The position numbers were made by a program, and so were the translations under genes. Of a stretch of DNA of 64,000 bases, positions 4,552-35,222 are shown piece after piece (position 1 is the stretch's first letter; each line of letters opens with the position of its first letter). The stretch lies in assembly GCF_027359675.1 (NCBI RefSeq), contig NZ_CP114786.1, positions 620,001 to 684,000 of the forward strand, in the 5' to 3' direction. The notes beneath the pieces are model-generated. The model saw only the letters and a program-made list of their open reading frames with translations, was not told where the DNA came from and ran no database searches. The stretch comes from Roseibium sp. Sym1. GTDB lineage: Bacteria > Pseudomonadota > Alphaproteobacteria > Rhizobiales > Stappiaceae.

Positions 4552-4608
4552 AAATCTGTCAGTGAGAGCCGCCTGCCCCGGACACGCCGAGGCAGGCAGG
4601 TTTTGGCA

Positions 4609-6189: not shown

Positions 6190-6270
6190 AACGCTGTCTC
6201 CTGCTCTGATTGGCATGCTGCATCAACAGAACTAGGGCGGCCCATCAAGGCCGGCAACCTGGTTGCTGCT

Positions 6271-6516
6271 TTGGGATTTTGTACAATTTTAAGTATATAT
6301 ACCCTCGGATTCCACGCGGTCTCCTGCGATGAAACGAAGGCGGCGCGGCTTCGAGCCCATCAGGCGGTTGTCTTCACGCGCCCTCCTGTTGCGAGAATGA
6401 ATGGTGGACGGATCCTGGGTCTGCCCCATGAAGCAGTCCACCGGGCCCTGGCGCCCCTGGTGCGCGACAACCGTATCGAGCGTGAGGCCGGCCGGATCCG
6501 GCTGACCCCGGCTTGA
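6271..6516 (+). other. Gap 6190-6580 with a small ORF, possible winged-helix remnant
   Basis: The space between the divergent sulfatase and methyltransferase genes starts with an AT-rich stretch around 6283-6302 that would suit a promoter. It then carries an 81-codon open frame. The C-terminal part (LPHEAVHRALAPLVRDNRIE) reads like the recognition helix and wing of a helix-turn-helix domain. There is no good ribosome site, the N-terminal half looks like non-coding translation, and no family is recognised. It may be a degraded regulator or chance. Confidence 0.25.
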
Positions 6517-6580
6517 GCAATTGCGTCCGGCACCCACCCTCGCCTAATCTGCTGTTCCCCTCACCAGACAGGAGCTCCTC

Positions 6581-7210: not shown

Positions 7211-7236
7211 GGTACGGATCCCAAGGTCCACTCGGC

Positions 7237-17910: not shown

Positions 17911-20247
17911 GTGGTCTCCCAACGCGGATCGAATGCGATGATTGAGGACGCGCGCTCTCAGAGCCGCGACGACATCACGCTTGATATCCTTTCCATCCTG
18001 CAGGTCCTGCGCCGGCGCATTCTCCTGATCGGGCTCGTGGCCGCCGTGTTTGTCATTGCAACGGCCCTTTATTCCCTGCGGCTCACCCCCATCTACAGCG
18101 CCACCTCCCAGGTCCTGTTCGACCCCCTGGTCCGCCAGCCCTTTGACGACCCGAACCGGCCGAGCCGCACCAGTGCCGGAACGGAATCCATCGACAGCCA
18201 GATTTCGGTGATCCATGCCGACACCGTCCTGCGGCCTGTTGCCCGAGACAACAACCTTTCGGAAGACCCCTTTTTCGGCGAAGGGGCGCCCGGCCTCATG
18301 AGCCAGTTCAAGAGCCTGTTCGGCGGGTCGCAAGCGAAGGATCCGGGGACGCTCGAAGCCCAGGAAACCGACGCAGTCAAGGCGCTTTCCGGTGCGACGT
18401 CCGTCAAACGGGTCGGCCAGACCTTCGTCATCAACATATCCGTTGAGTCGCCCTCGCCGGTGCAGGCCGCGGTGCTCGCGAACGCGATTGCGGAAAGCTA
18501 TCTTGCCGATCAGAGACGGCAGGTCAGCACCGCGTCCGACCAGGCAGCCACCCAGATCGATGACCGGCTGGTCGACCTTCGCGAACGCCTGCGGAAAGCC
18601 GAAACCGACATCCAGAAGTTCCGCGCCGCGAACAATCTGCAAAGCGCAAACGAGGGATTGCTTCTCACCGATCAGGAGCTCTCCGGGCTGAATACGCGCC
18701 TGATCGACGCGCGCGCCGCCCTTGCGGACGCCACCGCGAAATACGACGAGATCCAGCGTGTGCTGAAAAACGGCGTCGATGACGAGGCCATTGGCGACGT
18801 GGTCAGTTCAGGAACGATATCCTCGCTCCGCCAGCAATATGCACAGGCTGCCCGCAACGAAGCCCAATTGCTGGCCGACCTGCTGCCGTCGCATCCCTCC
18901 GTGGTTCGCGCCCGATCTCAACTGGACAGGCTGCGTGGCCTGATCCGGGACGAGGTCAAGCGGATCGCGGATTCCACGCGCATCGACGTGCAGGTCAACC
19001 AGGAACGTGTCGCAAACCTGGAGCAGCAGCTCAAGTCCACCAGGGACCTGTCGAGCGCGGACGAAGCCGCGTCGATCAAGTTGCGCGAACTGGAAACCGA
19101 AGCCCAGGCCACCCGGCAGCTTTACGAGATCGCCCTCAGCCGCGCCAAGGAGATCTCGCAGCTCGAACAGGTCGTCCTGCCGAATGCCCGGATCATCTCA
19201 CCGGCCGTTCCGCCGGACAGCCCGATCTTTCCGAAAAAGAAGATCATGGTGATCCTGGCCGGCATTCTGGGCTTGATGGTGGGAACGATCCTCGCGGTCG
19301 GCGGAGAGGCCATCCGGATTGCGAAAAAACACCTGCTGCCGGATTTTTCCGCGTCCGCGGCAGCCATGTCCGCCATGCCGGCTCCGGCGACGCCTGCGCC
19401 ATCGCAACTGGAGCGCCCGGACGCCGCTCCGCCGGCGCCCGCGACACATAGGTCCGGAAGACAGTCCCTGCTCCGGGCGGCGCAAATGGTCAGGCCGGGT
19501 CTCAAGCTTGTGAGCCAGCTGCCCTGGCTTCCCCTGGACGGGGACATCGACAATCCGCGCGCTCTGAACACGGATGCCATCTCGTTGGTTCAGGATGCGA
19601 TTGACCAGTATTATCTCGGCGGCAGGGGACCAAACCGGCGGTTTGGCGAAAGCGTCGATCAGATCCTCGATGACCTCGACCCCCACGCATCGCACCAATC
19701 GGCGAGAATTGTGTTCTTCACTTCGCCGTCGCTCGGACAGGGGCAGACCATCACCGCGCTTGCCCTTGCCCTTGGCGGCGCCCACCGTGACTTGCGTGTG
19801 CTCCTGGCAGACGGCGAACCGAAACAGCGCATGCTCAGCCACGATCTGAGCCTGGACGAAAGCGCCTTTGGTGGTCCGCTGCGCGACAGGGTGGTCTCGT
19901 TTGACGAGCTGGGCATCGACTTCGTGTCTCTCGTTTCAGGATTGCCCAAATACAAGCATCACCGCATGAGTGTCCGGCAGGCCTTTGAGTTTGCCGAGGT
20001 CGCGCGCAACTTCGATCTCGTGATCGTCGACGGCGTGGCTCTGCCGCAGCTCACCGACGACGACCCGCTTGCCGCGCTCGCCACGGATTTCCTCGTCACG
20101 GTGTCCGAACGCGAGGAAGGCCAGATCTCCATGCCGATCCTGTCCCGGGATCTTCTGACAATCGCCGACGGCCGCCCCACCGGCCTCGTGCGCACGATGA
20201 CCGGCCTCACCGGGCCGACCGGGCCGACCGGCCGGAAATACGGCTAA
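17911..20247 (+). CDS. Wzz/GumC/ExoP-type polysaccharide co-polymerase with degenerate tyrosine-kinase domain
   Basis: Controls chain length and export of exopolysaccharide. Membrane helices lie at about residues 38-60 and 445-465 and enclose a long periplasmic region with coiled coils (about 200-420). The cytoplasmic C-terminal part (about 585-778) has the fold of a BY-kinase, but the Walker A segment near residue 607 reads SPSLGQGQTIT, with Gln where the essential Lys should be, and the second acidic motif is reduced to LLADGEPK. Catalysis is therefore doubtful. The C-terminus has only one Tyr, two residues from the end, after a short G-P-T repeat encoded by a 9-bp tandem repeat at 20209-20235. 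The GTG start at 17911 follows AGAAGG at 17896-17901. A CTAACCAT box lies at 17851. Confidence 0.88.
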   Translation: MVSQRGSNAMIEDARSQSRDDITLDILSILQVLRRRILLIGLVAAVFVIATALYSLRLTPIYSATSQVLFDPLVRQPFDDPNRPSRTSAGTESIDSQISVIHADTVLRPVARDNNLSEDPFFGEGAPGLMSQFKSLFGGSQAKDPGTLEAQETDAVKALSGATSVKRVGQTFVINISVESPSPVQAAVLANAIAESYLADQRRQVSTASDQAATQIDDRLVDLRERLRKAETDIQKFRAANNLQSANEGLLLTDQELSGLNTRLIDARAALADATAKYDEIQRVLKNGVDDEAIGDVVSSGTISSLRQQYAQAARNEAQLLADLLPSHPSVVRARSQLDRLRGLIRDEVKRIADSTRIDVQVNQERVANLEQQLKSTRDLSSADEAASIKLRELETEAQATRQLYEIALSRAKEISQLEQVVLPNARIISPAVPPDSPIFPKKKIMVILAGILGLMVGTILAVGGEAIRIAKKHLLPDFSASAAAMSAMPAPATPAPSQLERPDAAPPAPATHRSGRQSLLRAAQMVRPGLKLVSQLPWLPLDGDIDNPRALNTDAISLVQDAIDQYYLGGRGPNRRFGESVDQILDDLDPHASHQSARIVFFTSPSLGQGQTITALALALGGAHRDLRVLLADGEPKQRMLSHDLSLDESAFGGPLRDRVVSFDELGIDFVSLVSGLPKYKHHRMSVRQAFEFAEVARNFDLVIVDGVALPQLTDDDPLAALATDFLVTVSEREEGQISMPILSRDLLTIADGRPTGLVRTMTGLTGPTGPTGRKYG

Positions 20248-20258
20248 GGCGCTTCGTT

Positions 20259-22049
20259 TCAGGCGGTGTCTCCGGCTCCGACGCCGGCAAACTCAAGCAA
20301 CAGTTCCTGCGCTTCGGCCCGGGCTTTCAACGGTGTCAGATTGTGGTCCGCGTCGGCAATGAACCCGACGGTCACATTCGAATATTTGGAGAGCCCTTTC
20401 CTGTCCTGGCCAAACCAGAGACCCAGCTCACCCAGGCCGCGGTCGCCTTCGCTGTAGACCAGCTGCACGGGAACGCCGCGCTCGTTCAGGGCGGCGAGCC
20501 GCTTGCCGAGAACCGACGACAGCCGATGATGTTTGGACAGCGGCCGCAGCACCGGCGCGAACAACATGTCGGCCTTCCGCGACAGGGCCGTGGCAACCTT
20601 TCTTGCCGCCGACACGGGATTGATCTCACCGGACAGGACCCGTCTTGCCGTTTCCCGGTCGAACATCTTGCGGCTGTAGGTCTCCAGTGTCTGGATCGGC
20701 TCGCGGATTGCCTGATCGACATCCTCGTCTGGGTCCCAGACCAGGCGGCGGGGATTGATCAGGAAGGCCCCGTTCACACGTTCGTCCCGCGCCGCGGCGA
20801 GCAGTGCGAGGTAAGCCCCGCTGCAGCGCCCGGACAGTATCACCCGCGTCACGCCGAGCCGCTCCGTCAGCCAGTCGATGGCAGCGCTGACGTCGTCGAC
20901 CTGCCGGTCCGAATACAGCACCTGCCCTGGTTGCCCCGGCCAGTACCGGCTTTCCCCGATACCGGCCAGATCAACCCGAAGAACCGCGGACCCGTTTGCA
21001 GCAAGCTGCCGTGCAAAACCGACTGCCATGCGCGCCCAGCCGATGGAATGGTCGTAGCCGGAATTCAGGATCAGGACGGCGGATCGCGGTGAACCGCTTT
21101 CCGGCTGCGCAAAAACGCCGAAAAACATGTCGTCAGGCCCGAACCGCACCAGCTCCTCTTTCACCCCGGCAACCGGCGTGAAGTCCGGCGACAGACCTTC
21201 CGGGACCGCCGGTGCGCTCTCCACCTCCTGCGGAAATTTGCCTTTCACCCAGTCGACAATGCGATCCAGTGTCGCTTCCGGCGCCACGGAAAGGGTCGGG
21301 TCGGCTACGTAGTCGAGATATCCCTCGAACGCCATGCGTTCCGGCGCAACGCCTTCGGCCGCATAATGCTCCGCGAGCTTCTGATCGCCCGGATGGTCCG
21401 GTCGGTCGACCAGGAGGAGGTGTTCGGTCCTGGGCGCCGACGCCTTGAGGAGGTTGAGCGACTTGAATTCCTCGGCGGTCGCGCGCGACAGCACAAAGCC
21501 GCCCGCCATCAGTCCGCCATCGGGTCCGTCGGAGGCTTTGACGAGAAAGGTCGGCTGTGTCATTGCGGTCCAGGCCGCCAGTTCGCGCAGATAGGCCCGG
21601 CCCTGCAGCACAGGTGCCAGCACCACCAGACCGGCCAGTTCCTCGCTCTGCGCAAGATCGGCCGCAAGGGCCGCGCCGATGCCCTGCCCGGCCACGATGA
21701 CATGCTCCAGGCCGGACAGTCTCTTCAGCTCGGCAAAGGCGGCCTTTACGGCGGTGCGCCAGGCGCCGTTGTCGTCGAGATCCGGGGCACTGCCCGCGGA
21801 ATGTCCCGTCGCGGGGTAATCAAAGCGCAGACACGGAAATCCTGCCGCGGACAGCTTTTCTCCCAGCATCCGGTAGCTCTTGCGCGAACACAATTCCTCG
21901 TAGCCCCATGGGCTCAGCAGCAAGACGGCCGTTCGCCCGCCGGCGGGATGGTAGAAACCAGCGAGCCCACCGAAGACGAGCGGCTGCGCGGGCACCGGTG
22001 AGGCGGCCGGGTCCAGGCGGGGCGGATTTTCAAAAACGTGCTGATCCAT
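20259..22049 (-). CDS. Tandem alpha/beta-hydrolase protein of an exopolysaccharide locus
   Basis: A 596-residue protein made of two alpha/beta-hydrolase folds. The first (about 35-275) has LLLSPWGYEELCSRKSYR and CLRFDYPATGHS, but its nucleophile elbow is GQGIG, with Gly123 in place of Ser, so it should be inactive. The second (about 300-590) has LNSGYDHSIGWAR, VLRVDLAGIGES and an elbow GRCSG, with Cys409 at the nucleophile position. Asp536 (SEGD) and His569 (ADADH) could complete a Cys-Asp-His triad. Similar proteins occur beside exosortase or exopolysaccharide genes and may act on acylated or lipid-linked sugars. It is monocistronic and convergent with the Wzz-like gene. Confidence 0.78.
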   Translation of the reverse strand: MDQHVFENPPRLDPAASPVPAQPLVFGGLAGFYHPAGGRTAVLLLSPWGYEELCSRKSYRMLGEKLSAAGFPCLRFDYPATGHSAGSAPDLDDNGAWRTAVKAAFAELKRLSGLEHVIVAGQGIGAALAADLAQSEELAGLVVLAPVLQGRAYLRELAAWTAMTQPTFLVKASDGPDGGLMAGGFVLSRATAEEFKSLNLLKASAPRTEHLLLVDRPDHPGDQKLAEHYAAEGVAPERMAFEGYLDYVADPTLSVAPEATLDRIVDWVKGKFPQEVESAPAVPEGLSPDFTPVAGVKEELVRFGPDDMFFGVFAQPESGSPRSAVLILNSGYDHSIGWARMAVGFARQLAANGSAVLRVDLAGIGESRYWPGQPGQVLYSDRQVDDVSAAIDWLTERLGVTRVILSGRCSGAYLALLAAARDERVNGAFLINPRRLVWDPDEDVDQAIREPIQTLETYSRKMFDRETARRVLSGEINPVSAARKVATALSRKADMLFAPVLRPLSKHHRLSSVLGKRLAALNERGVPVQLVYSEGDRGLGELGLWFGQDRKGLSKYSNVTVGFIADADHNLTPLKARAEAQELLLEFAGVGAGDTA

Positions 22050-22222
22050 TCCTGGGTGAACGCTCCAGATACGCGCGCATTTTGAGGCAATTTACCTCCC
22101 AATCCGCATTTTGCCTCGTTTTCCCGAGCCATTCCTTAATAATGCTGCAGGGGTCTTCGGTGCATTACAGAGCACAACACTCCTCAAGACACACTTAACC
22201 CGGGTTGGGAGCGCGTCAAATA

Positions 22223-23134
22223 ATGGAAAGAGTCTCCGTGGCCATCGCAAGCATCGGCAGAGAGACGCTGATCGAGACGCTCCGGTCGATCGCGGCCGTC
22301 AGGAGACCTCGGAACACCAGCCTGGACGTCCTGATTGCGGACGATTCAAGCGACGGCGCCGCCACGAAACTGGTCACGGCGCACCCGGTCAAGAACCTTG
22401 AGGTCACCTGCCTGAAGGTTGCCAGCGGCAACATTTCGAGCGCGCGCAACGCGCTACTTGAAGGGGCGGAAGGCGACTGGCTGATCTTTGTCGACGATGA
22501 CGAGTGGGTCGAGCCCGACTGGCTTGAAAGACTGTTCGCGTGCCAGGAAGACTTTCAGGCGGACGTGGTCATCGGTCCCGTCCGGCCCGATTATCCCCCG
22601 GAGACACCGGAATGGCTCGCGAAGGCAAACCCGCTCTACAATGACTGGGGGCACAGGGGCAAACGGCTCTACACGGGCCGCGGCGGCAACACCCTGGTAC
22701 GGCTCAGCCTCATCCGTTCGCTCGGCCTCAGGTTCGACGAGGCTTACGGGCGCACAGGTGGAGAGGACACCATGTTCTTCGGGCAGGCCGCCGAGAAGGG
22801 CGCCCGGATCTTTGCAACCGACGACGCTGTCGCCCACGAGCATGTGCCCGCGGAACGGCTGTCGGCGGAATTCATCCTGAACCGGGCCGTGCGCTCCGGC
22901 CAGTCCTACGGACATATGCGGCTCGCCCGGCATCCTGATCCGGTCTGGCATGTCCTCTTCGCGCTCTCCGCATTGGCGAAATGCGCGGCCGCCGGATTGC
23001 TGTCTGTCGCCACCCGGTTGTTCGACCGGGCACGTTCATTCCGCATGCGCCAGAAGCTCGCGCTGAACACGGGCAAATTGCGCGCGGTCCTGGGCCTGCC
23101 GCTGGCCGAGCTCTACAGCAAGCCGGACCGGTAG
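22223..23134 (+). CDS. Glycosyltransferase family 2
   Basis: An inverting GT-A enzyme like the succinoglycan ExoM/ExoO proteins. It opens VSVAIASIGRETLIETLRS, has LIADDSSDGA, and carries the metal-binding acidic cluster IFVDDDEWVEPDWL, followed by GEDTMFFGQA near the presumed catalytic base. A C-terminal hydrophobic stretch (about residues 245-270) suggests membrane attachment. I use the ATG at 22223; an in-frame TTG at 22205 is possible. The gene ends ten bases from the convergent deacetylase and is divergent from the double hydrolase. Confidence 0.87.
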   Translation: MERVSVAIASIGRETLIETLRSIAAVRRPRNTSLDVLIADDSSDGAATKLVTAHPVKNLEVTCLKVASGNISSARNALLEGAEGDWLIFVDDDEWVEPDWLERLFACQEDFQADVVIGPVRPDYPPETPEWLAKANPLYNDWGHRGKRLYTGRGGNTLVRLSLIRSLGLRFDEAYGRTGGEDTMFFGQAAEKGARIFATDDAVAHEHVPAERLSAEFILNRAVRSGQSYGHMRLARHPDPVWHVLFALSALAKCAAAGLLSVATRLFDRARSFRMRQKLALNTGKLRAVLGLPLAELYSKPDR

Positions 23135-23144
23135 TTCCGGACAT

Positions 23145-23825
23145 TCAGATCCGGTAGCGAAACCGCCGTGCCAGGGCGTAGACCGAACTTCTGACTTTCT
23201 GCCCGGTCCCGAGGCGCGGACCGACGTCGCGATCAGGATCGAATGTATCGGTCACGGACCAGCGCGGGCAGAACCAGGCCTTGTCATATGCAAAACCGGA
23301 CGTGCTCGAATACACCCGGGCGTAGCCCGCTTCCCTGAGCCGGTGCAGCACGTGCCGGTCGAAGGCGCCGAACGGGATGGCGGCTTCCCTTACCGGCGCC
23401 CCGACCGCATCCTCGATCTTTTTCCGGGCATCGTGCAGTTCCCTTCGAAGACCCGCCGCGTCGAGCTTGCGCCAGTCGACATGATCATGGCCATGACAAC
23501 CGATCGTCGATCCGGCGGAAATGATCTGGCGCATCTGTTCCCCGGTCAGGTAGCCCTCGGCGCCGATGCGTCCGGCAAGCACAAAAAAACGGGCCGAGCG
23601 GCCGGCTTCCACGAGGGCGGGTAAGCCGACAGTGAAGTCGGAAAGATTGCCGTCGTCGAACGTGACCTCCAGCCGGACATCATGACGGCGTTCCAGCGCC
23701 GCAAGACTGCCGATCGTGTTTCGGTAGGTGTCTTGTGAGACGAAGTAGCGTTTTTCGTCCGCTGAAACCGGAACCGCCGGTGCGCCGATGCCATGGAATG
23801 TGAGAACTTGGGTTCTGGCCAACAT
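23145..23825 (-). CDS. Polysaccharide deacetylase (NodB homology domain)
   Basis: A 226-residue CE4-type deacetylase. VTFDDGN gives the catalytic-base and metal aspartates (Asp57, Asp58); GCHGHDHVDW gives the metal histidines (His111 and His115); AAIPFGAFD is the next family motif. No signal peptide is visible, so it may act in the cytoplasm on lipid-linked or nucleotide sugars. It could remove N- or O-acetyl groups from the exopolysaccharide unit. It is transcribed alone on the minus strand; the 240-base space before the flippase gene (23826-24065) holds its promoter but no motif I can name. Confidence 0.87.
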   Translation of the reverse strand: MLARTQVLTFHGIGAPAVPVSADEKRYFVSQDTYRNTIGSLAALERRHDVRLEVTFDDGNLSDFTVGLPALVEAGRSARFFVLAGRIGAEGYLTGEQMRQIISAGSTIGCHGHDHVDWRKLDAAGLRRELHDARKKIEDAVGAPVREAAIPFGAFDRHVLHRLREAGYARVYSSTSGFAYDKAWFCPRWSVTDTFDPDRDVGPRLGTGQKVRSSVYALARRFRYRI

Positions 23826-24065: not shown

Positions 24066-25385
24066 GTGAGTGAAGAGGTCCAGCCGGAACCGCAGAAACC
24101 TGTCGGCCTGATTGCCAGGATTCGTGAAGTCGGTGCGCGGCCGGTCGTGCGCAACACGATCTATTACGGCATCAATTTCGGCCTCCAGGTGCTCACGCAG
24201 TTCGGCTTCTTCGCGCTGATCAGCCGGGTCCTCGGCCCGAGCGGCTACGGCATCTTTGCCAGTGTCTCCGCCATCGCCCTCATGGTGAGCGTGTTTGTCG
24301 GGCTTGGAAGCGATCATCTGCTGATCCAGAGAATCGCGGTCAACAGGGACGCCTTCGCCAGTTATTTCGGCCGCGCCCTCGCCATGATGCTGATGACGTT
24401 CGCCCCGGCCATGATGCTCGCGTTCGCCGTTCTCTATTTTCTCGACACCGGAACGTTCAGTTTCTGGGGCCTGTTCTGCATCCTGGCGGCGGAATGCGTC
24501 TTTCGGAAAATCTCGTTCCTGTGCTCGGCGACCTACATGGCGCATGACCGTGCCGGCAAACAATTTGCCGTCGACAATGCCATCATGATCCTGCGCTTTC
24601 TGGCGGTCGCGGTGCTGACGCTGACGACCGACACCGTGGACCTGGACACCTGGGCATTGTGGTATGCCTGCGCCAGCCTGCTGGCTTCCGGTGTGTCCCT
24701 GACGATGGTGCTCAAGGATTACGGCCTGCCCGGCCCGATCTTCTCGGGCTTTGAATTCAGGCAGGGATTTCTGCTCAGCCTCGAGTTCACATCCGTGTCG
24801 GGAATGCGCGACCTCGACAAGCCGGTTGTCGTGGAACTGCTCGGACCGGCACAGGCCGGTATCTACACAGCCGCCTTCAGGATCATCGATGCGGCCACCA
24901 CACCAGTCAAGGCCGCACTCTATGCCACCTATACCCGGTACTTTCGTCATGCCGACAAAGGCGCCGAACACGGCATCGCCTTCGGACTGCGTGTCCTGCC
25001 GGTCATCTCAGGACTGGGTCTTGCAGTTGCCGTCTTCATTGTCCTCATCGCGGGCTACGTTCCGTTGCTGCTTGGCGAGGACTACGAGGAAACGGTCGGA
25101 CTGATCCGGCTTCTCGCCATTTATCCGCTGTTGCTCGGCGCGGCGGGCATCGGCGCGGACATCATGCGCTCCATCGGGATGCAGGGCACCCGCGTCATCC
25201 TGGTCTTCGTGTCCAATTTCGTGATCGTGGGCGTCGTCTGGGCCGGCTGCAACCTCGGCGCCCTGGAAGGCGCCGTGCTGTCGCGCATGGCACTTCAAGC
25301 CGGTATCGTCGCCCTGACCTGGGGCCTGATCGGCCGCAAGAAGTCGCAGGTCGGCGCAAAGGCCGGCTCTTCCGAGACGAAATAG
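24066..25385 (+). CDS. Wzx-type polysaccharide flippase (MOP superfamily)
   Basis: An inner-membrane translocase predicted to flip lipid-linked repeat units. About twelve hydrophobic helices are spread over 439 residues. The first-helix region NTIYYGINFGLQVLTQFGFF and the loop SRVLGPSGYGIFASVSAIAL are typical of RfbX-like proteins. The start is a GTG at 24066 with GAGGT upstream. With the Wzy-like and Wzz-like proteins it completes a Wzx/Wzy export set. The initiating phosphoglycosyltransferase and the outer-membrane Wza channel are not in this window. Confidence 0.86.
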   Translation: MSEEVQPEPQKPVGLIARIREVGARPVVRNTIYYGINFGLQVLTQFGFFALISRVLGPSGYGIFASVSAIALMVSVFVGLGSDHLLIQRIAVNRDAFASYFGRALAMMLMTFAPAMMLAFAVLYFLDTGTFSFWGLFCILAAECVFRKISFLCSATYMAHDRAGKQFAVDNAIMILRFLAVAVLTLTTDTVDLDTWALWYACASLLASGVSLTMVLKDYGLPGPIFSGFEFRQGFLLSLEFTSVSGMRDLDKPVVVELLGPAQAGIYTAAFRIIDAATTPVKAALYATYTRYFRHADKGAEHGIAFGLRVLPVISGLGLAVAVFIVLIAGYVPLLLGEDYEETVGLIRLLAIYPLLLGAAGIGADIMRSIGMQGTRVILVFVSNFVIVGVVWAGCNLGALEGAVLSRMALQAGIVALTWGLIGRKKSQVGAKAGSSETK

Positions 25386-25403: not shown

Positions 25404-26468
25404 TCAGGAAACCTTCAGGCGGTCACCCCAATAGGTGACAATATCCTTGAACCTGCGCTGGATACGACGGTGACGCGCATGTTGCTGGCGCGCTTCGGAG
25501 AGGTCGAACAGGCTGTCGTTGATATCGTAGTCGCCGCGCTGGCCGTCCGGAATATCCCCCCTTTCGACCTGGTCGATCAACTCCGGCAGCGCCGCGTGAA
25601 ACGCCGGAAAATGAAACGGCGGATGCAACGAATACATGCCGTCTCCCGCTCCGAGGAAACACATGTTTCCCAGTCCGTGTTTCTGCAGCGTCAGACTGAG
25701 CACCTGTTCCGCGCTGAGCGCCTTGATCGGATTGCCCAGGAGTGTCCCTCGCAGACGAAAGGTCAGCGGCGGCGTGTCGAGATCAAGCGTGCCGACGCTC
25801 GCCTTGAACCGGTTCATGTCCATCAGGAACACCCGCGTGCTGACGAAATGAAAGCGATAGGCCAGGCGGCCGTCGACCACATCCTCGTCAAACGCGTGGT
25901 GCGCGCCGTCATGCCGTCCCTTCAAGCCGTCGGGATGAGGCGGCCCCGGCAGTGGGCTGGTGAACAGGAGATCTTCGCGTTGCTGCAGCAGGGCGATGGA
26001 TTCCTCTACCCAGGTCTGGCTCTGACCGCCGAACAGCATGTCCGCGTCCATGTGCAGAACATAGTCGCTGTCGGCAGCCAGGATGCCCTGGAAATAACAA
26101 TAGAACGGCCCACCATCCCAGGCCTTGTCCGGCATCTCCTGCGCGCCGAGGAAATATTTCGACACCCTGTCCCTTTCCGCGGCGCTGTAATCCACCTCGT
26201 GAAAGGACAGGTTCTCGTAGCGGTCTTCCAGAATGGGATAGAGCGCCCGGAAGGTCTCCAGGCTCTGCATGTAGCGATCGGCCTTCGGATCCCCCTTGTA
26301 GCGTCCCGATTGCGGCGGGCGCACGTCCACCGTCACGATCGTCCGGTCCACCTGCCCCCCGAAAGTCCGCATCTTGTGGGCCAGGGTGTCCTCGAAATGC
26401 GGCAAGTCGAGCGGATAGGTGTTGATCTGCATCGTCACGCGATGCCGCGTTGTGGACGGAAAGGTCAT
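25404..26468 (-). CDS. GT-A-like protein of unknown specificity in the exopolysaccharide locus
   Basis: A 354-residue cytoplasmic protein that I cannot place in a named family. VLHMDADMLF at residues 138-146 has the D-x-D signature of nucleotide-sugar-binding GT-A enzymes, and the preceding YCYFQGILAADSDY fits the strand and helix before it. The N-terminal segment MQINTYPLDLPHFEDTLAHK resembles the first strand and helix of such a fold. There are no membrane helices. It lies 27 bases after the GH2 gene on the same strand, so the two form an operon. A glycosyltransferase role is an inference. Confidence 0.6.
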   Translation of the reverse strand: MTFPSTTRHRVTMQINTYPLDLPHFEDTLAHKMRTFGGQVDRTIVTVDVRPPQSGRYKGDPKADRYMQSLETFRALYPILEDRYENLSFHEVDYSAAERDRVSKYFLGAQEMPDKAWDGGPFYCYFQGILAADSDYVLHMDADMLFGGQSQTWVEESIALLQQREDLLFTSPLPGPPHPDGLKGRHDGAHHAFDEDVVDGRLAYRFHFVSTRVFLMDMNRFKASVGTLDLDTPPLTFRLRGTLLGNPIKALSAEQVLSLTLQKHGLGNMCFLGAGDGMYSLHPPFHFPAFHAALPELIDQVERGDIPDGQRGDYDINDSLFDLSEARQQHARHRRIQRRFKDIVTYWGDRLKVS

Positions 26469-26495: not shown

Positions 26496-28949
26496 TCAGT
26501 CATGTTTGAACCCGATTTGCCTTCCCAGGTTGATCGCCTTCAGCACTCCAGCCGGTTTCGGTGCTTCCGGACCCGTCCTGCCCTTTGTCAGCAGCACACG
26601 CCTGGCAACTCCGGGCGCCAGGTGAAACCAGTTGTCCTCCGGCACGTATCCCGGAACCCGAAGCGACACCGACTGCAGGAAACGCGCTGCTTCAATGGTC
26701 AGCCACCAGCTGTCCTCCCCGCCGGGCAGGAGTTCGATCTCGGGCGCGTCGAAATGCCTGTTTTGCCCATGCCCTTCCGGAAAATGGCAGGCATCGGCCA
26801 GCACCGCTCCGGTCTCCGGATCCAGAAGGCGTACAATCGTCACATCATGGGAAAGCGGTCCGAAGCGGTAGGCATAGGTGACGTCGAAAAAGGCGCCGAT
26901 CAGCTCGACCGCATTGAAGGTCTGCCCGCTATGCGGTGCCAGGACCAGGTCCTTGGCGCCGGAGACGACCGGCACCTGGCCGTCCTTCAGGCAGGCGAGC
27001 GTGAGCGTCACCGCCTTTTCCTCCGGCCGGTCGTTGACCGCGTGAATGGCAAGCCCGTTGGTGCCCTCGTCGGTCAGGGCCACCTGCAACGGCCGGAACG
27101 CGCGCTTGAGCGCGTACCAGGCCGGTTTCGGCCGGCCCGCCGCGTCGATCAGCCCCCATCCGGCGCCCAATGCCAGGTCGGAGAAGGTCCACACGAGGGC
27201 GCCCCGGCATGGCGAGCCCGGTCTGCGCCACTCGGCAAAGGTCCGTTCCATGACCTCACCGGTCACCGCCCGGCCGAGTTCCAGATAGCGGTCCGGATCG
27301 CCATAGCGCAGGGTGGCGGGGTCAATTCCGTAAAGCGCGTTCAGATAGTGGTCGCGCACATCCTCGAAGTCCCAGCCGGCGCCCCGGTCGCGCGGCACGC
27401 GCGCCTTCCAGTGCGGATCATGCGCCGGCTTGACCGGCAGGCCCTCGTCGAGGCTTTGCTGATCGGGAATGTTGGAAAAGGCCAGGCACTCGCCGGCAAA
27501 GCGGACCTCCGCCCGGCGGGCGTCCTCCAGCGGCCTGAGATAGGCCCCGACGCCGTAATAGTGGGCAATGCCCTCATTGGGCGAGAATGGCAGCACGCCG
27601 CCGCAGGGCGAATTGGGCGCATAGGGCACATCCACCCGCAGGATCGAAGCAAGGTCGGGAAGGATCTCCTCGCAAAGCGGCCCTTTCCAGCGCGCTTCGG
27701 GAAGCCCCATCATGGCGCCCTGCTGGTAGATCTCGCTGCCGCCGCAAAGGACCGCCAGCGAGGGGCAGCCCATGGAGACCGACAACTGGTCGCGGACCTC
27801 GGCACGGACCTCCGCGACAAAGGCTTCGTCCTTGACCGGGTAGTCGTAATTGGCGAACTGGAAGTCCTGCCAGACCAGAATGCCGAGTTCATCGCACAGT
27901 TCGAAGAAGGCGCGGGTTTCGTAGAGCATGGTGCCGCCGATGCGCAGCATGTTCATGCCGGCGTCGCGGGCGGCTTCGAGCAGGGGCCGATAGGTGTCGG
28001 CGTCTCCCGACAGGGTCAGCAGATCGGCATTCGTCCAGACCGCGCCCCGGCAGAAGACCGCGACGCCGTTGACCTCCAGGCCGAAGCCCTTGCCGTCGTC
28101 GCCGTGATCCGCCTCCAGACGCCGGAAGCCCGTCCTGCCGAGCGAAAACGTTTCTTCGCCGGCGCGCACGGATATCTCGTAAAGCGCGGGCGTGCCGTGG
28201 GTATGCGGCATCCAGGGCGTGACATTGTCCGGCCGCAGCGTTGCGGCAAAGGAGCCGTCCTCCTGAGGGGACATCTCCACTGAAGCCCCGGCGCAGGAAA
28301 GCACGGGAACGGCATCGGTGTTTTCAAGCCGGAGCGAGACGGTCAAAGACGCACTGCCATCCGGCGCCAGATCGGCGAGAACATGCCGACCGGCAATCCG
28401 TACCGCTCCCGCAGGCTCGATCCGTACCGCCCGGTAGGGACCGACAGCATGGATCTCCGGGCACCAGCCGGGCATGTGGCCCAGCAGCGTCGTGCGCACC
28501 AGCCGCAGTCCCTGGGAAGTGGCCAGCTGCGGTTTCCAGCGGGCGCGGGGGCCCTTGGCAGCCAGATGAGGCTCCAGCGCGCGGAAACAGATCTTCAGGA
28601 CATTGCTGCCCTGAAGTTCGACCGCAACGTCATGGCTGCGGAACATGTTCCCGCTCTCCAGGACCAGGGCGTCATTCAGATAGACTTCCGCGATGGTCGC
28701 AAGGCCGTCGAAGCACAGGTGATAGGGTCCCGGTTCCGCGTCGAACCGGCCTTCGTACCAGACATCCCTGTCATGAAGCGGGGCAGGTGCGTCCGGGTCG
28801 TAGCGGCCGGCCGCCGCCAGGGCGCCGGCAACGGTGCCCGGCACGCTGGCGGGCACGATGTCCCATTGATGACCCGTGACCAGGGGCGAGCCGAAAGCGC
28901 CTGCTTCGGTTACTGACAGTGTCCAGTTTATTCCGGACAAATCGATCAT
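26496..28949 (-). CDS. Glycoside hydrolase family 2, beta-mannosidase-like
   Basis: A large exo-glycosidase of the GH2 beta-mannosidase branch. It has an N-terminal jelly-roll sugar-binding domain (VPASVPGTVAGAL, FDGLATIAEVYLND), an immunoglobulin-like domain and a TIM barrel (GMNMLRIGGTMLYET, VWQDFQFANYDYP). The acid/base is Glu406 in CGGSEIYQ and the nucleophile probably Glu487 in FAGECLAF, counted from this start. There is no signal peptide, so it is cytoplasmic. I use the ATG at 28949, with AAGGG five bases upstream; an in-frame TTG at 28976 would add nine residues. It may recycle mannose-containing oligosaccharides linked to the neighbouring pathway. Confidence 0.85.
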   Translation of the reverse strand: MIDLSGINWTLSVTEAGAFGSPLVTGHQWDIVPASVPGTVAGALAAAGRYDPDAPAPLHDRDVWYEGRFDAEPGPYHLCFDGLATIAEVYLNDALVLESGNMFRSHDVAVELQGSNVLKICFRALEPHLAAKGPRARWKPQLATSQGLRLVRTTLLGHMPGWCPEIHAVGPYRAVRIEPAGAVRIAGRHVLADLAPDGSASLTVSLRLENTDAVPVLSCAGASVEMSPQEDGSFAATLRPDNVTPWMPHTHGTPALYEISVRAGEETFSLGRTGFRRLEADHGDDGKGFGLEVNGVAVFCRGAVWTNADLLTLSGDADTYRPLLEAARDAGMNMLRIGGTMLYETRAFFELCDELGILVWQDFQFANYDYPVKDEAFVAEVRAEVRDQLSVSMGCPSLAVLCGGSEIYQQGAMMGLPEARWKGPLCEEILPDLASILRVDVPYAPNSPCGGVLPFSPNEGIAHYYGVGAYLRPLEDARRAEVRFAGECLAFSNIPDQQSLDEGLPVKPAHDPHWKARVPRDRGAGWDFEDVRDHYLNALYGIDPATLRYGDPDRYLELGRAVTGEVMERTFAEWRRPGSPCRGALVWTFSDLALGAGWGLIDAAGRPKPAWYALKRAFRPLQVALTDEGTNGLAIHAVNDRPEEKAVTLTLACLKDGQVPVVSGAKDLVLAPHSGQTFNAVELIGAFFDVTYAYRFGPLSHDVTIVRLLDPETGAVLADACHFPEGHGQNRHFDAPEIELLPGGEDSWWLTIEAARFLQSVSLRVPGYVPEDNWFHLAPGVARRVLLTKGRTGPEAPKPAGVLKAINLGRQIGFKHD

Positions 28950-29041
28950 CCGAACCCTTTCAATCTGGTCAGGCAAGGAAACCCCTTGTCCTTTGCCTGG
29001 CGTTCAATCCAATTTCCCGACAGACCAGGCCCACCCCATGC

Positions 29042-29148
29042 CGTCATCCTGAGGAGGGCTGAAAGCCCGTCTCGAAGGATCCGCAGCAAGCCCCCTGGCG
29101 AGTGGCCCATCCTTCGAGACGGACCTGAAGGTCCTCCTCAGGATGACG
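29042..29148. repeat. Long imperfect inverted repeat, dispersed palindromic element
   Basis: The outer arms GTCATCCTGAGGA (29043-29055) and TCCTCAGGATGAC (29135-29147) are exact inverse copies, as are the inner arms CGTCTCGAAGGAT (29068-29080) and ATCCTTCGAGACG (29109-29121). The whole would fold into one long stem. Sequences of this type are common between genes in alphaproteobacteria. It fills the 239-base gap between the GH2 start and the DUF1839 stop. Confidence 0.85.
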
Positions 29149-29188
29149 CCTTGGGTGAAGCGTCCGTTTTTACCTTTGCAAATTCAGA

Positions 29189-30214
29189 TCAGGCCCCGGC
29201 GGCGCTGACGACGGGCGTAAAACGGGCGTCCTGCGTTTCTGTGTAGTGCCGGTCAAGCTGTTCCATCAGCCTGTCCCAGGCATCGGCGGCCGGCACCAGG
29301 GCTTCGTCCAGCCCCTGGAATTTCTTGCGCATCACCGCGCGGGCCAGCTTGAACTGAACCATCTTGCAGGTGGACGAGATGGTCTTGGCAAAATCGACAC
29401 AGTCGGCCAGTTCCGGGCGACCCTGGTTCACCAGCCAGGCCAGGTAGGCCGAGAAAAGTTCGAAATTTGCACCGAGCTGGCGCAACGTGTTGAAAGCATA
29501 GAGATGGAAGAAATCGAACTCGCGTTCGGACACCTTTTCCACCTGGGCCGGAAACACGCGTGCAAAGGCAGCCACCGGATTGTCGGCGGGCCGGCGTTTC
29601 AGGTGGTGGCGCAGCAAGTCTTCCGAGACCGACAGGACATGCTCCGGCGACGGCAGGACCTCCGGAAACTTCACGAATTCGGTATAGGGCAGGAACGGGA
29701 CCGCCTTGGCATGGTCTCCGCGCTGGAACACTCCGTCGAAATCGTCGCCCTCCAGGCGATGCAGACCGAGACCGTGGAAATACTCCAGGGTCCGCGCCTC
29801 GAGATCCATCCGGTTGACCGCGATCGTGGTCTTGCCGTGGGCCTCGTGATAGCCGACGCCGTGCGTGTCCGGCAGGAAGTAGCTGTCGACCTCCACCAGC
29901 GAGATGCGGCCACGCTCGATCTGCTGCCGGACATGGGTCTCGACCTTGTCATAGATCGCGAGTTCCGTGACCTTGAGCCCGTAGAGCGCTTCCAGGTCCT
30001 CGAGCGGCACCTTGAAGAAGGTGAACTGGTCACCCTCGAAATCCTGGGTCACCGAATAGGCGAGACAGGCTTCCGGCGGCAGGCCGAGTGAAGGCAGCAG
30101 CTCAATCCAGACATCGAGATAGCAGTTGGTTTCCGGCCAGTCCCGCTCCTGGGCATGGAGCGGGCTGCGCTGATAGGTCGCCGCGCTGAGGCGATCGAAG
30201 ACGGCTTCGCTCAT
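29189..30214 (-). CDS. DUF1839 family protein, partner of the amino acid:carrier-protein ligase
   Basis: A 341-residue soluble protein of a family without assigned function. Recognisable parts are YLDVWIELLPSLGLPPEACLAY, FEGDQFTFFKVP, EVDSYFLPDTHGVGY and a helical C-terminal half. From memory, the family is found beside carrier-protein ligases of the seryl-tRNA-synthetase type, which is the case here. The start is the ATG at 30214, with GAGGGA about ten bases upstream and 13 bases after the ligase stop. The frame extends to 30283 inside the ligase gene. It is the last gene of the operon. By context it could take the amino acid from the carrier or act as an acceptor or transferase, but that is a guess. 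Confidence 0.8.
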   Translation of the reverse strand: MSEAVFDRLSAATYQRSPLHAQERDWPETNCYLDVWIELLPSLGLPPEACLAYSVTQDFEGDQFTFFKVPLEDLEALYGLKVTELAIYDKVETHVRQQIERGRISLVEVDSYFLPDTHGVGYHEAHGKTTIAVNRMDLEARTLEYFHGLGLHRLEGDDFDGVFQRGDHAKAVPFLPYTEFVKFPEVLPSPEHVLSVSEDLLRHHLKRRPADNPVAAFARVFPAQVEKVSEREFDFFHLYAFNTLRQLGANFELFSAYLAWLVNQGRPELADCVDFAKTISSTCKMVQFKLARAVMRKKFQGLDEALVPAADAWDRLMEQLDRHYTETQDARFTPVVSAAGA

Positions 30215-30227
30215 CAAGCGTGTTCCC

Positions 30228-31139
30228 TCAAGGCCAGAGCGCCGAGCGCACGCCCGCAGGCCACTTGGCGGTATCAAAGCCATGGTGCCGGAACAGGGCC
30301 AGCGCCAGACGCTCCAGGCCGAAGCCGACGCAGGCGGTGTGGGCCGGCTCGCCGTCGGCCTGGCGGATGTCCCAGGCCTTGCCGAAATTGTCCATGTGAT
30401 AGTTGAAGCTCATGCAGGCGGTCGGGTTTTCTTCCGAGGTGATCGGCACCAGCATCTCGAATTTCAGTTCCTGCTCGCGCTGGCCGGACGCCATGATCTT
30501 GCCGGCGCGGCCGAAGAACGGATCATTGGCGACATCGACGTGATGCGGCAGCTCGAGGCGCTTCATCATGTCCTGGCCGCGTTCCTTCCAGGTTTCCCGG
30601 AATGCCATGGTCTGCTCGGCCGAACCGACACGGACATATTCGCGTTGGCGGAACATCTGCATCCGGGCCGGGTCCTTGGAGGGCTCGTGCCGGAAGCAGT
30701 AGGACTGCAGGGCGACATAGGCGCCGTCCTCGGCAAGCGGTCCGCGCCGGGACAGGATCGGATAGAGCGGGTAGCAGGCCGCGGGCGTCAGGGCCACCTG
30801 TGTCGGCTTCTGGTGTTCGGACCAGTCGTCGCCTGCCGCCATGCATTGCAGCAGGCCCATGTGGTCGTGGTCATTGCCGCAAAAGGCATGAACGGTGCCG
30901 GCGAGCTGCGGAAAGCTCTTCATGTAGCCGCTGGTCTCGAAATCCTGCATGGTCATGCCCGGCGGGAACACCATGGCTTCGGAAATCTCGTCCTGGCCGT
31001 AGGTCAGGGCGAATGTCTCGAAACGGGCAATGACGTCCTCAAATTCACCGCTGCGGGCATAAAGCCCGTCGACGCCGCTGTCATGCAAAACGCCTTCATT
31101 GAACAACTGATCGAGAAAAGAGACTTGCGCGTCCATCAT
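30228..31139 (-). CDS. Amino acid:[carrier protein] ligase (class II seryl-tRNA-synthetase-like)
   Basis: This protein has the catalytic core of an atypical seryl-tRNA synthetase but lacks a tRNA-binding arm. Class II motif 2 is at [11 protein letters not shown] and motif 3 at [12 protein letters not shown]. Cys (AACYPLYP), Glu (REYVRVG) and Cys ([10 protein letters not shown]) are placed like the zinc ligands that bind the amino acid in this family. Characterised relatives in rhizobia activate glycine or alanine with ATP and load it onto the phosphopantetheine arm of a small carrier protein instead of tRNA. That fits the ACP gene 1.2 kb upstream. The start overlaps the dehydrogenase stop as TGATG; a GTG at 31142 and an ATG at 31136 are alternatives. 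Confidence 0.88.
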
Positions 31140-32320
31140 CACCCCAAAAGACTGGTGTCTTGTTTGTTGACCAACAGCATGGTCGACGTGTTGCCAAGGA
31201 TCCGGTCATTGGAGATCATCAGCTGCGCCGAATGGGCATCGCGCAGATGGCGGCCGAGACTGAACGGCGTGCCGTTCTTGTATCCGGCGATCCCGCAGAT
31301 CAGCATGCAGTGGTTGATGATTTCCAGGATGGTCTGGGAGGTGCCGATCTTGACGTTGTTCATGGCAACGGAAAAGCTCATGGCATTGAGTGCGTCGCTG
31401 TCGCCCTTGCAGCCCTCGAACTGCTTCAGGCCGGCGACAACATTGGCCTTGACCAGCTGCAGCAGGCTGGATGCCTCTGCAAGGCGCAGCGCACCGGGAG
31501 GCACCTGGCCGGGCGACTTGCGCGCGGCGGCCTTGACGAAACTCTGCGCCCGGGCCGCGGCGTCCGCGGCAATGCCGTACCACAGCGATCCCCACAGCAG
31601 ATGCGAGACGGCCAGCATGGATTGGGCAGCGATTTCGGCGAAGGGCCGCGGCAGGATCTGCTCGGACGGAGCTTCCGCCTTGAAGATGTAACCGTCGGAA
31701 CAGGTGCCGCGCATGCCGAGCGTGTCCCACTTGCTGGTCTGCTCGAGCGTGTACTGGTCCTTGAGGAAGATCGTCGCGACCTGGTCCGAATGCGCCGCGT
31801 CCGGATGGCGGCGGGAGGTGACCATGATGGCGTCCGCGTCCGCGCCGTAGGAGATGACGGTGGCGTCCTTGGTGAGCCGGGCCGTGTCGCCGTCAACCTC
31901 GATCGCGCAGAGCGAATTGCGCAGGTTGCCGCCGATACCGGCCTCGCTGGTCGCGGAGGCGATCAACAGCTGCTCGTCGCAGATCCGCTTCTGGAGTGCC
32001 TCGTGCCAGGCGCTGCCCACGGCATAGTCGGCCAGGCTGGCGATCTGGATCTGGTGCATGGCATAGGTCATCGCCGTGGCTGCACAGGCCTGTCCCAGGA
32101 TCGCGCAGACATCCGCGACCTCCGTAAGGCTGGCGCCCTCGCCGCCCAGTTCCGGACGGATCATGATGCCCATCAGCCGTTCGGATTTCAGGGCGTCCAT
32201 GCCCTCGGAAGGAAAGCGTCCTTCAATATCGACCTGATCGGCAAATTCGGCGGCGACCTTGGCAGCCCGTTTCGCACGGTCTGCCAGCGCCAGCGCAGTA
32301 ATCTTGGCTGCAGCGGTCAT
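31139..32320 (-). CDS. Acyl-CoA-dehydrogenase-like flavoprotein acting in a carrier-protein operon
   Basis: A 393-residue acyl-CoA dehydrogenase fold: an all-helical N-terminal domain with [16 protein letters not shown], a beta domain with [16 protein letters not shown] and [16 protein letters not shown] (substrate and FAD contacts), and a helical C-terminal domain ending [20 protein letters not shown]. The usual C-terminal EGT segment with the catalytic Glu is not seen at the expected distance after RDA. Placed between the ACP and ligase genes, it probably oxidises an aminoacyl or acyl group on the carrier, as flavoenzymes do with prolyl-carrier proteins. That role is inferred from context. 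It starts three bases after the ACP stop. Confidence 0.82.
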
Positions 32321-32323
32321 GGA

Positions 32324-32572
32324 TCAGGCGGCCTGTTCTTCGAGGATTTCGGTCAGGGCAGCCGCGATCTCGTCGACGGAAGAAAACGACTTGCGGTTCA
32401 GGAGGTGCTCCGGGAACTCGATATCGAATTCTTCTTCGAGCGCCAGCATGACCTGCACGGAGGCGAAGGAAGACAGGCCCGCGTCATACAGATCCGCGCC
32501 GTCGGCAACGTCTTCAATGGCGACAGGCAGATTGCCGTGCTTTGCCAGGAGGGTCCGAATGGTCTGTTTCAT
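32324..32572 (-). CDS. Acyl/aminoacyl carrier protein
   Basis: An 82-residue acidic carrier protein. The phosphopantetheine attachment site is the first Ser of DAGLSSFASVQ. The following helix, VMLALEEEFDIEFPEHLL, is typical of ACPs. I place the start at the ATG at 32572 because AAGGA lies about six bases upstream; the in-frame ATG at 32587 has no site. It is the first gene of the operon and the expected acceptor for the amino acid activated by the ligase. It is not the fatty-acid acpP, whose usual neighbours (fabD, fabG, fabF) are absent. Confidence 0.9.
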   Translation of the reverse strand: MKQTIRTLLAKHGNLPVAIEDVADGADLYDAGLSSFASVQVMLALEEEFDIEFPEHLLNRKSFSSVDEIAAALTEILEEQAA

Positions 32573-33362: not shown

Positions 33363-34145
33363 CTAGGGAAGCGCAACAAAATCGATATGGCCGACCATCA
33401 TGGAGAGTTCGCCGGCCCGGATCCTGGCCTGCCGGTCCTGCCACCAGGATGCCAATGCGTCCTCGGGCAGGCTCAACTCCCGTCCGACGCGCAGCCAGCC
33501 GGAGAGAAATTCCATCAGGAAATCGGCGGAAGCGGGCGTTATCTCCCAATCGGACGGACCGGACAGGACCTTGAAACCCTTCTCCTCGAACAGGGTCAGC
33601 GCCCGAGCGGCGGCGTCCGGGCCGAGCGCCGGGCCGAACCCCTTGTCCGTGCGCTGGTGCCGGTTCAAGCCCTCCAGAAGCCGCTCGTCCATCGGGTGCG
33701 CGGGCGCAAAGCTCGAGCGTCCGTCATAGGTCAGGCTGGCAAGAAACGGTTTCCTTGCCGCCGCCACACGCTCCGCCAGACGTCGCAGGAACGGCTCCGA
33801 CGCGAGATCCAGAAAGGCGGAGGTCGTCACGGCATCCACGTCTTCGAAGCGAAGCCGCTCGAGATCTGCTTGCAGATCGACCTGCCGGGTCGCGACCCGG
33901 TCGCCCCGGCGATCCTGCGCGATCGCCAGGAGGGCGGGATCGTAGTCGGTCAGCAGCCAGTCGACCTGTCGGTCCAGGCGCGGCGCGAGGGCGGCAACGG
34001 TCGATCCCGCGCCGCTGGCGAGATCGAGCAGCCGTACCGGGCCGGGCGGAAGGCCCCCGACGAAGGCGTCCTCCACGTCCCGATTGCGCGCGTCCAGGTC
34101 GAGAGGTTCGCGCAGGGCGAGCCACTCGGATGAAAAACCGCTCAT
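33363..34145 (-). CDS. SAM-dependent methyltransferase of the pterin-like operon
   Basis: A 260-residue class I methyltransferase. LLDLASGAGSTVAALAP is the SAM loop, WLLTDYDPALLAIA carries the acidic ribose contact, and VDAVTTSAFLDLAS is the motif after it. The rest fits no specific substrate family that I recognise. Its ATG overlaps the stop of the upstream glycosyltransferase (ATGA at 34142-34145), so the two proteins are made together; a methyl group on the glycosylated product is the obvious idea. Last gene of the MDR-PTPS-GT-MT operon. Confidence 0.75.
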   Translation of the reverse strand: MSGFSSEWLALREPLDLDARNRDVEDAFVGGLPPGPVRLLDLASGAGSTVAALAPRLDRQVDWLLTDYDPALLAIAQDRRGDRVATRQVDLQADLERLRFEDVDAVTTSAFLDLASEPFLRRLAERVAAARKPFLASLTYDGRSSFAPAHPMDERLLEGLNRHQRTDKGFGPALGPDAAARALTLFEEKGFKVLSGPSDWEITPASADFLMEFLSGWLRVGRELSLPEDALASWWQDRQARIRAGELSMMVGHIDFVALP

Positions 34146-35215
34146 TGTGCGACCTCCCGCAAGGTTTCAGCAAAGCGAACCGACGAAGCCGTCCAGTCCG
34201 GCAGTGCCCCGGCCGCCTGTCTCGCGGCGGTTTCATAGCGCGCCCGTTCTTCAGGGTGACCGATCAGGCGGTCCAGCCCGGCGCGCAGGGCCGCCACATC
34301 CTCGGTACCGCAATAGATCGCGGCCCCCTCCGGCAGGGTGTCCCGCACAGCACCACCGCCGCTGCCGATCACCGGCAGACCATGGGCGAGCGCTTCGGTA
34401 TAGGCCATGCCGTAGCCCTCGTAGCGGCTGGCCAGGACGAAGACATGGGCCGCGCGGTAAAAACCGGGCAGGCGCTGCTGAGCGACCGCACCATGGAACG
34501 TGATCCGCCCATCCAGACCGAGCGCGCCGATCTGCTTTTTCAGGGCCGTGTAGCAGGCCGGGTCCGCGTCCTTCCCGCCGACGATGTCCAGATGCCAGTT
34601 TGCGCTGTTCGGCCCGGCAAGACCGGCCAGGGCGTCAAACAGGAGATCATAGCCCTTGCGCGGTACGATCGTGCCGACCGAGAGCAGCCTGACCACATCG
34701 CTTGCCAGGTCGCTTGACGGGCGCGCATAGGGCTCCGGCTTGTCGGTGCCCGGCAGGATCGTCGTGATCCGTTCTTCCGGGACCGCGAACAGGTCGTGGA
34801 CCTGCGCCGCCGTGGCCGGACTGGTGACGATCACACGCCGGACATGGCGCAGGGCCGCCCGTTCGCTTTTCAGAAGCGCTTGAGCTCCCTCTTCATCAAG
34901 TCCGTTTTCCAGGCAAAGCGGATGATGGACCAGGGCGACCAGGCGAAGACGGCCGGCCTCGGTGGCTGCGGCCTTGTCCAGAACGCCGAACGCCAGACCG
35001 TCCACGACAACAAGCGTAGCGTCCGGCAGCGCGGCCAGCTTGTCGGCCGCTCCGCGAAGCGTTTCGGCCGCCGGATAGGGAAATCCGTCGCCCAACGGAA
35101 CAAGCCGCACCTGCCAGCCAAGTTCGCGCAGGCCGGAGACAATGCGCCTGTCATAGCCGTAGCCGCCGGTCGGTGTTTCCAGGTCGCCGGGATAGGCAAA
35201 AAAGACGGTGGGCAT
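34142..35215 (-). CDS. Glycosyltransferase family 4 of the pterin-like operon
   Basis: A 357-residue GT-B enzyme. It opens VFFAYPGDLETPTGGYGYDRR, has LVALVHHPLCLENGL in the acceptor domain, LLSVGTIVPRKGYDLLFDAL at the start of the donor domain, and ASRYEGYGMAYTEALAHGLP with the E-x7-E pair. It is not close to the exopolysaccharide GT4s in this window by eye. It starts seven bases after the PTPS-like stop (GTG at 35218 is an alternative) and ends overlapping the methyltransferase. That tight linkage suggests its acceptor is the PTPS product or a derivative, as in cyanobacterial pteridine glycosides; this is inference. Confidence 0.8.
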   Translation of the reverse strand: MPTVFFAYPGDLETPTGGYGYDRRIVSGLRELGWQVRLVPLGDGFPYPAAETLRGAADKLAALPDATLVVVDGLAFGVLDKAAATEAGRLRLVALVHHPLCLENGLDEEGAQALLKSERAALRHVRRVIVTSPATAAQVHDLFAVPEERITTILPGTDKPEPYARPSSDLASDVVRLLSVGTIVPRKGYDLLFDALAGLAGPNSANWHLDIVGGKDADPACYTALKKQIGALGLDGRITFHGAVAQQRLPGFYRAAHVFVLASRYEGYGMAYTEALAHGLPVIGSGGGAVRDTLPEGAAIYCGTEDVAALRAGLDRLIGHPEERARYETAARQAAGALPDWTASSVRFAETLREVAQ

Positions 35216-35222
35216 CACCGGA

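Follow-up and report, generated by a model that had tools for sequence, protein, structure and literature searches.

A five-gene cassette in Roseibium proposed to transfer a carrier-bound aminoacyl group to an amino-sugar acceptor

Contig NZ_CP114786.1 of Roseibium sp. Sym1 carries, within the stretch of 64,000 nucleotides analysed here (positions 620,001 to 684,000; hereafter the window), a compact set of minus-strand genes centred on an amino acid:[carrier protein] ligase. In order of transcription these genes encode an 82-residue aminoacyl carrier protein (ACP; 32324..32572), a 393-residue flavoprotein with the acyl-CoA-dehydrogenase (ACAD) fold and without a known acidic base (31139..32320), the 303-residue ligase, which is homologous to the catalytic core of seryl-tRNA synthetase (SerRS; 30228..31139), and a 341-residue DUF1839 protein, a papain-like candidate carrier-dependent acyltransferase or amide synthetase (29189..30214). 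Three bases separate ACP from the flavoprotein, the flavoprotein and ligase genes overlap in TGATG, and 13 bases separate the ligase from DUF1839, for which an alternative longer open reading frame begins at 30283, within the ligase gene. Open reading frames and family scans agree with the four-gene operon, with gaps of 13 bases or less, described in a first-pass annotation. The end that it placed at DUF1839 has to be moved, since a fifth member follows: an 826-residue GH2 beta-mannosidase-like glycosidase (26496..28976, minus strand). The host genome (7.26 Mb) has a single ligase copy. The best explanation of this gene set, which we consider moderately likely, is a carrier-protein-based aminoacyl transfer cassette, in which an amino acid would be loaded, oxidised by a flavin enzyme and transferred to an amino-sugar acceptor.

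In a profile scan the ligase scores 493.6 bits against NF005479 (cut-off 357), and by sequence it matches the PDB entries 4h2w (E 8e-91) and 3mey (Bll0957 of B. japonicum; E 1.9e-88). SerRS profiles and chain 3w3s align with it at approximately their own positions 310-505 only; judged from these alignments, the protein is a SerRS catalytic core that lacks the tRNA-binding arm. Residues C122, E167 and C270, which we take to be zinc ligands, are invariant in 85/85 alignment rows. The ACP reaches 118 bits against NF005480 (cut-off 72), also matches PF00550, and is related to the PDB entries 4h2w_C and 2jq4 (Atu2571) with E 1e-24. Its Ser35, assigned as the phosphopantetheine site by alignment to the DSL motif, is present in 73/73 rows. 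The loading of an amino acid onto the carrier, already proposed in the first-pass annotation, is supported by membership in these solved ligase and carrier families. The likeliest amino acid for an NF005479-type ligase is presumably glycine or alanine, and a PNAS paper of 2010 reportedly describes carrier protein loading by a ligase of the Bll0957 type.

The DUF1839 protein (PF08893, E 3.7e-129) is the candidate transferase. Its model structure has a CcbD/CtaG-like fold, with CcbD, CtaG and AziU2-U3 as structural matches; the resemblance to CcbD extends across nearly the full length, at approximately 10% identity to CcbD/LmbD. The active site is probably a Cys-Thr-His triad of C31, T130 and H147, of which C31 and H147 are kept in 36/36 alignment rows; a passage of PMC10318531 assigns Thr/Ser as a third catalytic residue. 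The model suggests that DUF1839 works like the CcbD/LmbD amide synthetases, without being classed as one of them. It had been proposed that DUF1839 releases or transfers the carrier-bound group; the model favours acyl transfer. Membership of the BtrH family was considered and set aside because the Pfam profile BtrH_N (PF14399) gives weak matches: E 0.15 for the window protein, and six of 36 DUF1839 proteins with a best E of 0.03.

The linkage of these genes was examined by searching for the ligase and DUF1839 families in two even samples of genomes, one at class level (385 genomes) and one at phylum level (398). The ligase is found above the cut-off in 10 and 28 genomes, respectively (34 in union), and DUF1839 in 5 and 16 (19 in union). 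Each of the 19 has a DUF1839 copy adjoining the ligase, two (G613 and G681) have second copies, and no DUF1839-positive genome without the ligase was encountered in the two samples. The flavoprotein lies near 32 of the 34 ligases and DUF1839 near 19; the neighbourhood analysis, named in the first-pass annotation as able to refute its reading, does not refute it. Regions were retrieved for 33 of the 34 genomes, the remaining one being that of the window, and the other parts were sought by tblastn. ACP and flavoprotein occur in all 18 retrieved DUF1839 genomes and GH2 in 17, the exception being G186 (L069); counting the window as well, 18 of 19 sampled DUF1839 genomes have all five genes. Among the 15 ligase loci that lack DUF1839, the flavoprotein is present in 13, GH2 in none, and two have the ligase and ACP alone. 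ACP was detected in eight of these 15, which is an under-detection; the carrier protein of L049 was missed by tblastn. Below the cut-off, seven further ligase places were found in the class and 17 in the phylum; in the five examined (L064-L068), other cassette parts were not found.

A search of genome contigs, which favours close relatives, recovered all five genes in 45/45 complete loci; L021 and L048, at contig ends, are left out of this set, and the even samples are free of this bias. The window is L001 in the alignments, where L020 and L073, as well as L030 and L084, are identical in sequence. Of the ten closest ligase loci with a name, nine bear the label Roseibium, Labrenzia or Stappia. 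Other families, other orders and Betaproteobacteria have the gene set too, at about 40-65% identity and with its order mostly kept, so the grouping is beyond chance. The median gaps, where measured, are 3, 5.5, 2 and 16 bases. Gene-tree distances correlate at 0.76-0.96, which partly reflects species history, and those of the flavoprotein correlate best with those of the ligase (r 0.96). In the ligase tree, rooted at the midpoint, 64 DUF1839-type sequences and two others are separate, with support 0.86, from the 13 of flavoprotein-only loci.

A second ligase context, with the flavoprotein and without DUF1839 or GH2, is seen in L049-L060 and L062. The carrier protein is divergently oriented in several of these loci, and some have AMP-ligases, Cys/Met pyridoxal phosphate (PLP) enzymes and homoserine-succinyltransferase-like genes nearby. 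Dependence of the whole gene set on the ligase was rejected because the loci that lack DUF1839 have different neighbours, namely AMP-ligases, Cys/Met PLP enzymes and thiamine pyrophosphate enzymes.

The domain scan and structure comparison assign the ACAD fold to the flavoprotein; PF02771 is above its cut-off, and the C-terminal and middle ACAD domains are below theirs. No acidic base is present at the canonical or the isovaleryl-type position, which hold I/V/A and S/A/C/T in 79/79 rows. The aligned ACAD paralogues have E or D in 12/12 (12 of 28 matches were retrieved, and L107 and L111 among them align poorly). Alpha,beta-desaturation, proposed earlier for the carrier-bound amino acid, was downgraded because this base is missing; with glycine also offering no beta-carbon, N and C-alpha are the likelier sites of oxidation. 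Asp372, near the canonical base position and kept in 77/79 rows, could conceivably act as a base for desaturation. The analogy to pyrrole formation was dropped, as the L-prolyl-carrier dehydrogenase profile NF045652 gives only 20.6 bits (cut-off 650). It is quite improbable that desaturation of the carrier-bound amino acid is followed by its release by DUF1839, acting as a thioesterase, as a small amino-acid-derived product. The operon content agrees with such a route, and papain-like cysteine enzymes can hydrolyse thioesters; however, the acidic base is absent, DUF1839 is CcbD-like over nearly its full length, and GH2 would be left unexplained.

By sequence, the best PDB matches of the flavoprotein are KijD3, 3mxl and DnmZ, which we take to be sugar N-oxidising nitrososynthases; the nitrososynthase/monooxygenase branch is closest by sequence but tied by structure. 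These matches and the lack of an acidic base are consistent with a flavoprotein whose substrate is the acceptor, for example an amino sugar that it would N-oxidise, and not the carrier-bound amino acid. We regard this as unlikely: the flavoprotein accompanies the ligase in 13 of the 15 loci without DUF1839 and GH2 and is thereby linked to the aminoacyl carrier, and its tree distances follow those of the ligase most closely.

GH2 matches PDB beta-mannosidases with E 4.4e-48. By alignment, Glu415 and Glu496 are the catalytic pair; among the 66 rows that reach at least 80% length, 63 have both residues and the other three have a gap. In relatives the operon runs on into GH2; in L003, the last base of DUF1839 is 11951 and GH2 begins with the next, 11952. 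GH2 is probably cytoplasmic, because no signal peptide was seen by eye. The three rows without the catalytic Glu residues are second copies in Cupriavidus, in which both ends match and approximately residues 372-500 are missing. They belong to second DUF1839-GH2 pairs (L023 1494-4594, L024 1573-4670, L046 1465-4613), in which the catalytic Cys of DUF1839 is replaced by Ser and the part of GH2 that would contain the two Glu residues is missing; by these residues, the pair is a predicted paired pseudoenzyme copy.

In the window, 212 bases with a palindromic repeat element (29030..29170, no strand) separate DUF1839 from GH2. The element has no part in the mechanism proposed below; the spacer hairpin has a z of -7.7. 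The repeat, GTCATCCTGAGG...CGTCTCGAAGGAT, lies at 29043-29147. Its pattern occurs in 84 places of the host genome, where copies often form inverted pairs. The inner stems differ yet remain complementary in many copies.

Gene positions, linkage, conserved residues and model-based folds are the established ground on which the transfer cassette can be sketched. In the first step, which follows from the family, the ligase would use ATP to activate a small amino acid and load it onto the phosphopantetheine of ACP. The flavoprotein would then oxidise the carrier-bound residue at N or C-alpha, by N-oxygenation or to an imine or glyoxylyl group. DUF1839 would take the acyl group onto Cys31 and pass it to the amine (or hydroxyl) group of an acceptor that contains an amino sugar, in Roseibium probably an exopolysaccharide or lipid-linked oligosaccharide, and GH2 may trim or recycle the glycan acceptor or product. 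More specifically, glycine or alanine might be oxidised on the carrier, to an N-hydroxy, imino or glyoxylyl type, by an ACAD-fold oxidase or oxygenase that lacks the acidic base, and then be joined through an amide bond to an amino sugar by DUF1839, as a relative of the lincosamide amide synthetases with a Cys-Thr-His site. This would be a glycan modification that still awaits a chemical description, and we put it forward only tentatively, at well below even confidence.

A sugar acceptor is suggested by the links to glycan genes. Exopolysaccharide genes flank the cassette in the window on both sides: Wzy (16499-17812), Wzz (17911-20247), a GT2 (22205-23134), a deacetylase (23145-23825), a Wzx-like polysaccharide flippase (24066..25385, plus strand; PF01943/PF13440 above cut-off) and a GT4 (34142-35218). 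Flank proteins of other loci were picked by a GC3 rule (155 in 18 DUF1839 loci, 113 in 11 others); of these, 77 from 11 DUF1839 loci and 66 from seven others were scanned, and the 25 most frequent families listed. Among the matches listed, the DUF1839 flanks have five GT-group-1 proteins, three sugar transferases, three Wzz and two ManC-like proteins, and the other flanks seven AMP-ligases, three Cys/Met PLP enzymes, three Wzz and two GH43.

The cassette is also carried by plasmids, including those of legume symbionts. DUF1839 is found in 59 of 72,556 plasmid records, and 11 of 12 retrieved plasmid loci match all five cassette genes. Several counts weigh against a simple polysaccharide reading. 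Wzz relatives are not enriched (4/18 DUF1839 loci vs 3/15 others), which slightly lowered our confidence, and flippase relatives are rare in both groups (1/18 vs 0/15); at least four annotated plasmid loci have no polysaccharide-synthesis gene close by. The product could instead be a diffusible small glycoside or amide, by a lincosamide-like logic, with GH2 removing a sugar from the product or a precursor. CcbD, CtaG and AziU2-U3, the structural matches of DUF1839, all belong to pathways that make small molecules, four annotated plasmid copies stand apart from polysaccharide synthesis, and one incomplete copy (L089) lies near a non-ribosomal peptide synthetase (NRPS) gene. However, chromosomal flanks hold glycan genes, and a flippase is fused to a neighbouring gene in L096; on balance, a diffusible product is possible and rather doubtful.

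The fusion in L096 (14868-18179; Rhizobium sp. NLR16a plasmid p3) is a 1103-residue gene that joins a Wzx-like flippase to a two-domain hydrolase, adjoining GT4 genes and the operon. L074 and L079 have open reading frames of about this length, known by length only. The corresponding alpha/beta hydrolase of the window (20259..22049, minus strand), possibly accessory, has hydr2_PEP-like and hydr1_PEP-like domains (TIGR03100/TIGR03101, below cut-off) and is related to exosortase-associated hydrolases 1 and 2. Such a hydrolase lies near 11/18 sampled DUF1839 loci, 0/13 flavoprotein-only loci and 2/2 loci with ligase and ACP alone. Directly upstream of the L096 cassette (4552-7378) are genes for elongation factor P (EF-P), EpmA and a lysine-2,3-aminomutase-like protein, which form another aminoacyl-tRNA-synthetase-paralogue system; EF-P families match two of the 77 DUF1839-flank proteins, among the matches listed. 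In Rhizobium gallicum pRGM101a (L088 12322-18494) and R. acidisoli pRapFH23a (L095 7329-13418), the cassette is directly downstream of nif genes and fdxB and is preceded by a gene with the annotation 'exopolysaccharide production repressor' and a weak SyrA-like match; the R. acidisoli GH2 is broken across several frames. Directly 3' of GH2 in the window lies an open reading frame (25404..26468, minus strand) that has no match in the Pfam scan and may, on our own reading, be glycosyltransferase-like; it holds the same position in two relatives, L002 (88%) and L016 (63%).

The cassette belongs to a kind already predicted, since a note added in proof to PMC2922099 outlined the same SerRS-paralogue system in 2010, with the same proposed outcome, attachment of the amino acid to a sugar amine. 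While loading and linkage in the first-pass annotation stood, it had missed this prediction, as well as GH2 and the links to glycan genes. Both descriptions include a SerRS-like ligase, ACP, a redox enzyme, a conserved uncharacterised protein, a glycosidase and liposaccharide genes. This five-part gene content is present in the window and its relatives, and liposaccharide or polysaccharide genes lie nearby in the window and part of the relatives. The redox enzyme outlined in that note is a Rossmann-fold monooxygenase/dehydrogenase, whereas that of the window has the ACAD fold. The conserved protein there (example Atu2574, which gene order and numbering indicate is the DUF1839 gene) comes without a structural model, in contrast to the CcbD-like model available here. 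No experimental test of the prediction was found in searches of open-licence papers. A term count of the PMC1569441 text found none of the words hydrolase, carrier protein and acyl-CoA. For the purpose of SerRS-like carrier-protein ligases, on which the 2010 note offers a guess (PMC2922099), a candidate transferase with constant partners, and with a structural precedent for coupling amino acids on a carrier to the amines of sugars, makes the question directly testable. If the proposal is true, translation-type, flavin and antibiotic-type enzymes work together in a further route of aminoacylation.

Of known systems, Bll0957 and Atu2571 (PDB 3mey, 4h2w, 2jq4) represent the same ligase and carrier families as the window, and work on them showed carrier loading, as related in PMC2922099. 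AlmEFG of Vibrio cholerae is similar by description: a carrier is charged with glycine, which is then transferred to a glycolipid of the cell surface. Its point of attachment by AlmG is an acyl chain of lipid A, unlike the sugar target proposed here (passages of PMC12930378). BtrH of butirosin synthesis performs papain-like acyl transfer from a carrier to an aminoglycoside, as proposed for DUF1839 (PMC10318531, in part), but its family profile matches DUF1839 proteins weakly, as noted above. In the lincosamide systems (CcbD/LmbD with CcbC/LmbC), the passages of PMC12945683 and PMC4351081 describe no ACAD-like or GH2 partner; activation is by an NRPS-type adenylation domain rather than a SerRS-like ligase, and the triad is Cys-His-Glu. 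Like the window cassette, however, they pair a stand-alone activating enzyme with a carrier protein, and their cysteine enzyme, whose fold the DUF1839 model shares, couples the amino acid on the carrier with an amino sugar.

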